From an uncultured Desulfuromonadales bacterium (GTDB taxonomy: Bacteria > Desulfobacterota > Desulfuromonadia > Geobacterales > CAIOGM01): 44,156 nt of DNA. Within the stretch, counting starts at the first letter, position 1, and each line of letters opens with the position of its first letter. The notes beneath the pieces are model-generated. The model saw nothing but the letters and a program-made list of their open reading frames with translations, was not told where the DNA came from and made no database searches. Made by a program: the position numbers and the translations under genes. Shown piece by piece: positions 25,379-27,647 of this stretch. The stretch covers positions 1 through 44,156 of the forward strand of contig CAIYUY010000045.1 in assembly GCA_903929485.1 (NCBI GenBank), read 5' to 3'.

Positions 25379-25598
25379 CTTGGTGCGTCCCTTTCTCTCA
25401 TGGTAATTACTGCTGCACTGTTATCATGGTAAAGCAGGGAAAGCAACTATCCTGGTGGGAGTCATGTTGTACCTGTAACATAAATCCACCGGAATATGAC
25501 AAATCCCGGCTGTTGGAAGTTTACAAACGGGTATGACCATCACTTAGGGAATGACTTTTACTCCACCCCGGAGCGCCGTTCATGATAAGATGGACGCC

Positions 25599-27647
25599 AT
25601 GGATCGTTTCGCGCTCATCTCTGCATATTCCCCCCAGGGGGATCAGCCCCAGGCCATCTCGGAACTGGTGGAAGGTCTGAATCGGGGTGACCGGGATCAG
25701 GTACTTCTGGGGGTAACCGGCTCGGGGAAGACCTTCACGGTGGCCAACGTCATTGCCGCGGCAAACCGACCGGCCCTGGTGCTCGCCCCCAACAAGACCC
25801 TGGCGGCTCAGCTCTACGGCGAGTTCAAGGAGCTTTTTCCCCGGAACGCAGTGGAGTATTTCGTTTCTTACTACGATTATTATCAGCCGGAGGCTTACCT
25901 CCCCAGCACCGATACCTTCATCGAGAAGGACTCGGCCATCAACGATGAGATCGACAAGCTCCGCCATGCCGCCACCCGGAGTCTCCTCACTCGCCGGGAC
26001 GTGATCATCGTCGCCTCGGTTTCCTGCATCTACGGTATCGGCTCCCCCGAGGCGTACGAGTCCATGCATATCTTCTTCCATCAGGGGGATGATTATGGCC
26101 GGGACACCCTCCTCAAAAAACTCATCGAGATTCAGTATGAGCGAAACGACCTGGATTTTCACCGGGGAACCTTCCGGGTGCGGGGGGATGTGGTGGAGGT
26201 TTTTCCCGCCCATGACGATCAACGGGCCTATCGTATCGAGTTCTTCGGCGACACGGTGGAGGTAATAGCCGAGATCGATCCGCTTCGGGGGCAGATCCTC
26301 CATCGTCTCTCAAAATTGACGATCTATCCGGCTTCCCACTACGTGGCTACCAAGGAGAGCCTGGAGCGGGCCGTGGTGCGGATCCGGATTGAACTGGAGG
26401 AACGGCTCCGGTGGTTTCGAGAGCAGAACATGCTTTTGGAGGCTCAGCGGATAGAGCAGCGGACTCTCTTCGACCTGGAGATGCTGGAGGAGGTCGGCTT
26501 CTGCCAGGGAATCGAGAACTACTCCCGCCACTTCGACGGCCGCCAGGCGGGGGAGCCGGCCTACACACTCATAGATTACTTTCCCAAGGATTTCCTTCTC
26601 TTCGTGGACGAGTCCCATATCACCGTCTCCCAGGTGGGGGGGATGTACCGGGGAGATCGCTCCCGCAAGGAGACCCTGGTTAACTATGGTTTCCGGCTCC
26701 CCTCGGCCCTGGACAACCGCCCCCTCACCTTTCCCGAATTCGAGTCAAAGATCAACCAGGTTGTCTATGTTTCCGCCACCCCGGCGGATTACGAGCTGCA
26801 ACATGCCGGCGGCGTGGTAGTGGAGCAGGTAATCCGCCCTACCGGGCTCATGGACCCGGTCATCCAGGTCCGGCCGGTGACTCCTGCCCCCCTTCAATCT
26901 CCCTCTGATTCAGGAGGGGGATTGAAGGGGGGGGACGGGCAGGTGGACGACCTCCTCCATGAGGTGCGGGAGACCGTGGCCAGGGGGGAACGGGTCCTGG
27001 TCACCACCCTCACCAAACGGATGGCCGAGGAGCTGACGGTCTACTACCGGGAACTGGGGGTTCGGATCAAGTATCTTCATTCCGACATAGACACCATCGA
27101 GCGGATGCAGATCCTTCGGGGACTCCGGCTGGGTGAGTTCGACGTTCTCGTGGGGATCAACCTCCTCCGGGAGGGGTTGGATCTCCCCGAGGTCTCCCTG
27201 GTGGCGATCCTGGACGCCGACAAGGAGGGGTTTCTCCGTTCCACCCGTTCCCTCATTCAGACCTGTGGCCGCGCCGCCCGTAACGTGGCCGGCCATGTCA
27301 TCATGTACGCCGACAAGGTCACCGGTTCCATGCAGGCCTGTCTGGACGAGACCCGGCGCCGCCGGAAGATCCAGGGGGAGTACAATCGGGAGCATGGAAT
27401 CACCCCCCAGACCGTGGTGAAGGGGTTGCGGAGCATCCTGGAATCCATCTCCGAGAAGGACTACTACACCGTCCCGGTGGCCGCCGAACCTGGCGAGGAG
27501 TACGGTTCTCTCAAGGATATCCCCAAGCTGGTGAAGAAGTTCCGGAAGGAGATGCTGGCCGCGGCCAAGGAGCTGGATTTTGAGAAGGCCGCGGAGTTGA
27601 GGGATCGGATCAAGGTGCTGGAGGAGCGGGAGCTGGCGCTGCGGTAA
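25599..27647 (+). CDS. uvrB: UvrABC system protein B, with an in-frame palindrome insertion
   Basis: UvrB is the damage-verifying helicase of nucleotide excision repair. Motifs: Walker [37 protein letters not shown] (beta-hairpin region), [62 protein letters not shown], and a C-terminal UVR motif ([13 protein letters not shown]). ATG 25599 matches homologues; ATG 25590 is possible. There is no ribosome site. Between RPV and QVDDLL, E. coli has two residues; here there are about twenty, encoded by a 46-base palindrome (26887-26932, codons about 430-445). The frame stays open, so a full-length protein of 682 residues is expected. Next gene: hemerythrin. Confidence 0.96.
26887..26932. repeat. 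Palindromic element inserted in uvrB
   Basis: The left arm CCCCCCTTCAATCTCCCTC (26887-26905) pairs with the right arm at 26914-26932 with one mismatch in 19, around an eight-base loop. It falls exactly where the UvrB protein gains about 18 residues compared with E. coli UvrB. The arms are poor in conserved residues ([14 protein letters not shown]), as expected for an element that was inserted. Confidence 0.8.

Follow-up and report, generated by a model that had tools for sequence, protein, structure and literature searches.

The window analysed here, a stretch of 44,156 nucleotides from an uncultured Desulfuromonadales bacterium, contains an intact uvrB gene on the forward strand (25599 to 27647), which encodes excinuclease ABC subunit B. 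The start was chosen by alignment with relatives, and an in-frame ATG upstream, at 25551, is a possible alternative. The protein scores 1068.7 bits with NF003673, against a cut-off of 743, and carries the domains and conserved sequence that characterize UvrB. In most bacteria UvrB is dispensable, which corrects the wording of an earlier sequence-only reading of this DNA that had called the helicase essential.

Within the gene lies a 46-bp palindrome (26887 to 26932, forward strand), identified by inverted-repeat search and by folding, with 19-nt arms at 26887 to 26905 and 26914 to 26932 and an 8-nt spacer. The arms contain one mismatch (18 of 19 positions complementary, 95%), and the uvrB reading frame is open throughout, palindrome included; the arms, coordinates and frame given by the sequence-only reading were thus all recovered. 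The palindrome falls within 20 codons (26880 to 26939; residues 428 to 447 counted from 25599) between the motifs VRPV, which ends at 26879, and QVDDLL, which starts at 26940. Insert-free UvrBs have two residues there, so the protein is 18 residues (54 nt) longer at this point. The earlier count of about 20 residues where Escherichia coli UvrB has two is matched here by 20 against two in Photobacterium (L113).

The palindrome is the sole inverted repeat with more than 83% complementarity among four in the window (with arms of 16 nt or longer, separated by no more than 60 nt). Its strand folds at -44.8 kcal/mol (z = -6.1), and none of 200 dinucleotide shuffles folded as well. The best 60-nt window over the palindrome reaches -44.4 kcal/mol. 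Outside the loop, the 22,701 windows of 71 uvrB genes, this gene among them, all have higher energies, with a minimum of -36.9 kcal/mol. Folding energies were used because the mismatch hides the palindrome from counts of perfect-arm hairpins (arms of at least 9 nt), which miss it.

The predicted structure of the protein has a mean pLDDT of 82.7, and its fold agrees with that of solved UvrB. Residues 429 to 445, which constitute the insert, have pLDDT values below 50 and lie between a predicted strand (421 to 425) and a predicted helix (446 to 461), and two solved UvrB sequences show an 18-residue gap at this position when aligned with the protein. The low model confidence suggests that the insert is a disordered interdomain linker between the two helicase halves. 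A disordered linker tolerates changes in length as long as the frame holds, which would explain the survival of the insert.

Occurrence of the extended UvrB loop

With an insert-free query of 168 residues spanning the site, 134 of 141 genomes of the order, many of them drafts, gave a match. The window's genus is represented by 4 genomes (f1) and one other family by 76 (f4), and two further families of the order were included (f2 and f3). None of the 59 matched f2 and f3 genomes has an insert (168 of 168 residues aligned over 504 bases); a second uvrB in G061 spans 501 bases over the query instead of the usual 504. No insert was found in any of 80 more distant UvrBs (the best 80 of 588), which were placed outside the order by identities of at most 67% and by their titles. 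In a survey of the phylum, 371 of 395 genomes matched, and the insert is missing from all sequences from outside the order among the approximately 150 best matches listed, some of which have one residue fewer. Among the five weakest matches from outside the order, those of G174, G188, and G421 are cut or broken, that of G345 is ordinary, and that of G508 carries an insert elsewhere in the segment. The G508 UvrB (L259, from another family of the phylum) has 18 extra residues slightly downstream, after LLEEIRLRT.

In total, 72 loops were read, 4 in f1 and 68 in f4, with the f4 genomes G092, G099, G130, G131, and G140 giving no match and the loops of G086, G095, and G135 being unreadable. All 72 are open frames. 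Six loops have 5 residues, 36 have 8 to 14, and 30 have 15 to 64, so that 66 of 72 exceed 5 residues. Within the sequences examined, the extra residues appear to be absent outside these two lineages of the order. An insert specific to one strain is ruled out by the extended loops in all four genomes of the genus; a strain-only loop, which the sequence-only reading had proposed to look for, is not what the three genus mates show, as they carry decayed or different loops of 16 to 19 residues at the same place.

Dispersed repeats related to the inserts

The sequence-only reading had named the lack of any other genomic copy as a ground for rejecting its proposal, and for the exact element this lack was observed. 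No second near-identical copy of the palindrome was found in its own genome (G000) in whole-genome searches by DNA sequence and by pattern, and the exact 46-nt element as a multicopy repeat of this genome is unsupported by either search. The pattern search gave 4 forward and 7 reverse matches, two of them the palindrome itself, compared with 1 and 6 in the control. A DNA search of the order with the 46-nt element matched 14 of 141 genomes at an E value of ≤0.01, including G000, and the other matches were partial.

A relationship to dispersed repeats emerged at the level of the core. The name family D is used here for a dispersed palindromic repeat with the core CCCCTCCTGA(A/T)TCAGGAGGGG. The right arm and spacer of the palindrome, read on the minus strand (26905 to 26919), are identical to its form CCCCTCCTGAATCAG over 15 of 15 nt, with 0.02 such matches expected by chance. 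The match covers one arm and the spacer and not the full element, and the other arm matches with a mismatch and one base short, which leaves the core as a whole imperfect. In the order, 66 of the 141 genomes contain the core CCCCTCCTGAWTCAGGAGGG with up to two mismatches, and a backward-read control of the core pattern gave 1 match in all. The only copies in G000 are two remoter cores with two mismatches each, in C182 and C233, and their divergence is greater in the spacer.

A covariance model of family D was built from 17 of 30 core loci, which were picked by eye and orientated and none of which lies in uvrB. On each strand of the window, the palindrome is its top match, with E values of 0.0064 and 0.038, followed by a match at 0.074, although these values are rough. 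Run over 63 sources totaling 889 kb, the model gave 7 matches at an E value of ≤0.01, and the window palindrome was not among them. Six of the seven are uvrB loops of five f4 genomes, and the seventh lies downstream of uvrB in the genus mate G003; the sources had been chosen for holding uvrB, which accounts for 125 kb of the searched sequence, with the uvrB loops making up 3.5 kb. Two of the six loop matches belong to kind A, described below, which indicates that the model also picks up G/C-rich hairpins more generally. Together with the absence, among the sequences examined, of the extra residues outside the two lineages, the match to a dispersed repeat family supports the sequence-only reading in its central proposal, a palindromic repeat that was inserted where the second helicase half begins and is translated in the uvrB frame.

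Several other family D loci were noted. A good copy lies approximately 1 kb downstream of uvrB in G003 (L010:4506-4550). In G073, a family D palindrome is in frame in a CobB-type cobyrinate synthase fragment (L248:3-779, Pfam GATase_3), the start of which looks like a translated family A repeat. L142 (G015) and L135 (G063) appear by eye to represent the same protein and place, with only L248 domain scanned. Another family D palindrome is in frame in a fragment of mfd, also a repair gene, in G087 (L245:1-801, minus strand; TIGR00580, E = 3.7e-41). Apart from these family D loci, tandem units of approximately 28 bp in L133 (G049:C14:80888-80973) match part of the palindrome.

The picture at the UvrB site is also wider than the single inserted element envisaged at first, since other palindromes occupy the same site in the related family f4. 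The long inserts were sorted into kinds by eye. Kind A, which has the form AAATCCCCC...CCCTTT...AAAGGG...GGGGGATTT, is found in uvrB of G129, G048, G052, G087, and G100. Kind B is found in uvrB of G046, G097, and G114 and in decayed form in G056, kind C in uvrB of G089, G106, and G122, and a further kind in uvrB of G040, G093, and G113. Each of the remaining kinds occurs in one to four genomes. BLAST comparison (E ≤ 1e-3) joins 20 of the 30 long inserts in one linked group through shared pieces and flanks, which indicates that the kinds are not cleanly separate and that part of their scatter reflects inheritance with loss.

Kinds A, B, and C also occur outside uvrB. Kind A is found in many places at 92 to 100% identity over one hairpin, with extra copies in the uvrB carriers G129, G048, and G087, and three copies were read as intergenic (L255, L256, and L257); its query included 75 nt of uvrB, which makes its genome tally uninformative. 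Kind B matches were found in 94 of 141 genomes, with extra copies in the uvrB carriers G097, G046, and G114, and kind C matches in 112 of 141, with extra copies in G122, G089, and G106. G000 itself has at least 9 matches to B (best E = 1.8e-8) and at least 8 to C (best E = 3.4e-6). Copy numbers of the three kinds are lower bounds, as the best few candidates were scored per genome. By their matches elsewhere, the inserts at the UvrB site of relatives are identified as dispersed repeats of several kinds.

Comparison with known palindromic repeats

The portion of PMC3733652 consulted describes repetitive extragenic palindromes (REPs) of the GTAG and CGTC superfamilies as short palindromes translated within conserved genes, many of them for DNA repair. 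It reports two single REPs at different sites in Rickettsia conorii uvrB and, for two Xanthomonas species, different REPs that lie at roughly one position in recB. The palindrome studied here resembles these intragenic REPs in being a short palindrome translated inside a conserved DNA repair gene (PMC3733652, as far as its consulted portion describes them). Unlike in the GTAG and CGTC superfamilies, none of the 17 family D copies has GTAG or CGTC in the 45 nt of their alignment. A CGTC tag does occur on the minus strand at 26934 to 26937, one base outside the right arm of the palindrome. These bases are part of the codon pair GAC GGG, where the genus mate G001 has GAC GGC, and the tag may be no more than uvrB codons. 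In contrast to the REPs reported in R. conorii uvrB, and compared by their description in that portion of the source, the present case involves one UvrB site, several kinds of repeat, many genomes, and two lineages. REPs in general are palindromes of 20 to 40 bp that are present in high copy number and mostly extragenic. The present element has 46 bp, and the family that it matches is dispersed in the order and not of high copy number in G000.

Rickettsia palindromic elements (RPEs), as described in the part of PMC10969869 consulted, are palindromic repeats of approximately 150 bp inserted in frame in unrelated genes. The likeness lies in a palindromic repeat held in frame within a gene, and the difference in length (approximately 150 bp versus 46 bp), both judged by description and length alone from that part of PMC10969869. 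Geobacter metallireducens has families of multicopy sequences, some of them palindromic, located between and even within genes, according to the part of PMC2700814 consulted. Going by that description, they resemble families A to D in being both inter- and intragenic; the main text of PMC2700814, as consulted, does not name uvrB. Recurrent occupation of this UvrB linker by repeats was not found in a literature search that covered few subscription journals and relied on secondary accounts of RPEs. In the literature covered, some of it in part, in-frame palindromic repeats and REPs in R. conorii uvrB are therefore known already, and recurrent occupation of the UvrB linker was not found.

Origin and history of the inserts

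These observations make it probable that a REP-like repeat left this palindrome as its remnant in a disordered linker, at a site that takes up such repeats recurrently. The concentration of hairpins in the long loops, detailed below, speaks for this reading. Against it stand the missing second copy in G000, the failure of the window palindrome to appear among the seven matches of the 889-kb run, the long loops that have no hairpin beyond chance, the strong folds around the site in two short-loop genomes (G050 and G125), and the linkage of many inserts in one BLAST group. Three other explanations were considered. The palindrome could have arisen locally, in a loop that was already extended, by template switching or slippage (quasi-palindrome correction) and not from a mobile repeat. 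The single copy of the 46-nt element in its own genome is in favor of a local origin, as are the 16-residue loops of the genus mates G002 and G003, which have no hairpin beyond chance. However, the exact 15-nt family D core, rarely expected by chance, the match of the family D model to the site on both strands, and the dispersed nature of the repeats that relatives carry there all argue against it, and we regard a local origin as unlikely.

Selection on the mRNA is a second alternative, in which a hairpin at the domain boundary would slow translation and aid the folding of the helicase halves, or would regulate uvrB. Very stable hairpins do occur at this one interdomain boundary in many genomes: relative to dinucleotide shuffles, 20 of 30 long loops have a hairpin z score of ≤-2, compared with 2 of 36 short loops, and the short-loop genomes G050 and G125 also have strong folds around the site (-42.3 and -40.3 kcal/mol). 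In a separate control on hairpins of any kind, 542 mechanically defined neighboring open reading frames (ORFs; 591 kb) contained 55 perfect-arm hairpins, a density of 0.09 per kb; between ORFs the density was 0.77 per kb. When these stretches were compared by BLAST with the uvrB inserts, matches lay at 2 places in approximately 540 other ORFs, 7 between ORFs, and 21 in uvrB, a comparison that favors uvrB because the queries were uvrB inserts and most of the 21 places are self-matches. The sets of other ORFs in both controls retain a few uvrB pieces (G017, G086, and G135), with G017's own uvrB excluded from the 2 places. Against a function of the hairpin, ten long loops (those of G002, G003, G056, G113, G126, and five others) retain the extension without a hairpin beyond chance, 34 of the 36 short loops do not reach a z score of -2, and no insert is present in the loops of f2 and f3. 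A role in the mRNA is therefore very improbable. Equally hard to credit is a selected peptide, in which proline- and glycine-rich linkers would tune the movement of the helicase halves with repeats as raw material, for although 66 of the 72 loops in the two lineages are extended, they vary widely in sequence and length, the insert is modeled with low confidence, and lineages without it exist.

If the palindrome is a REP-like remnant, as we favor, its history can be outlined from the distribution of the loops. On a uvrB tree built without the loop, at least 19 changes between long and short loops are needed over 83 sequences, compared with 24.6 ± 2.0 for shuffled labels (6 of 500 shuffles at ≤19), and f1 and f4 alone give 19 changes versus 23.4 ± 2.0. 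These are minimum counts that do not separate gain from loss, on a tree with 24 of 80 inner branches open. The long-loop trait is scattered on the tree, yet less so than by chance. The distribution appears to be in part a matter of inheritance, judging from the kind A inserts of G129 and G052, which belong to different f4 branches and are 89% alike over 124 nt, spacer included, and from the short loops of G096 and G118, which by eye resemble the tail of kind A.

One kind may also have succeeded another. In the kind B inserts of G097 and G114, the first 28 to 29 nt are 96 to 97% like the A inserts, with approximately 12 of these being common uvrB codons, and the last 20 nt of the G114 insert are common to the kind A insert of G052. 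In most of the other B copies, the match to the B query begins at base 7 and leaves out the leading GGCAAA, which suggests that GGCAAA in the uvrB inserts of kind B is left over from A. We read this as suggesting a replacement of A by B in at least one case.

We thus propose that one hairpin of the dispersed, REP-like family D entered uvrB before the genus split. The right half of the palindrome is recognizable in the genus mates G001 and G003 and barely in G002, which would best place the insertion before the split, with subsequent decay in the mates. The palindrome would have survived because it is in frame and lies in a flexible linker between the helicase halves that tolerates changes in length. 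The same linker in the related family f4 would have received other repeats, namely A, B, C, and others, which were then presumably shortened, decayed, or in at least one case replaced by one another. The mobility of these repeats is suggested by their dispersal, and they may have arrived by mobilization, perhaps through a Y1/RAYT-type transposase or through recombination between copies. Y1 transposase genes occur in 125 of 141 genomes, with or without uvrB inserts, and their presence fails as a predictor of the inserts. Many matches to the Y1 transposase family (PF01797) were seen in individual genomes, with 17 in G128 (C1; at least 14 with the same score) and 28 in G014. A separate function of the peptide encoded by the insert is improbable.

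The tolerance of the linker does not by itself account for the frequency with which repeats arrive at the UvrB site. One option is that repeats insert frequently at all sites but are tolerated at few of them; the other is that a resident palindrome favors the next event. The second option leads to a more tentative and rather doubtful possibility, that the UvrB linker is a standing landing site, where a resident palindrome attracts, or is swapped for, repeats of other families through integration directed by the hairpin or through recombination of one copy with another. If this were true, one codon position of a repair enzyme would record the turnover of a community of mobile repeats. In-protein palindromic repeats have otherwise been described mostly as scattered cases. 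The 30 long inserts among 72 genomes in one linker, which are of several kinds and were probably in part exchanged in place, offer a natural set of sites in a well-understood enzyme, ranging from filled through half-decayed to empty. This makes it testable by what route the REP-like repeats of these bacteria move and how DNA of repeat origin becomes protein sequence.
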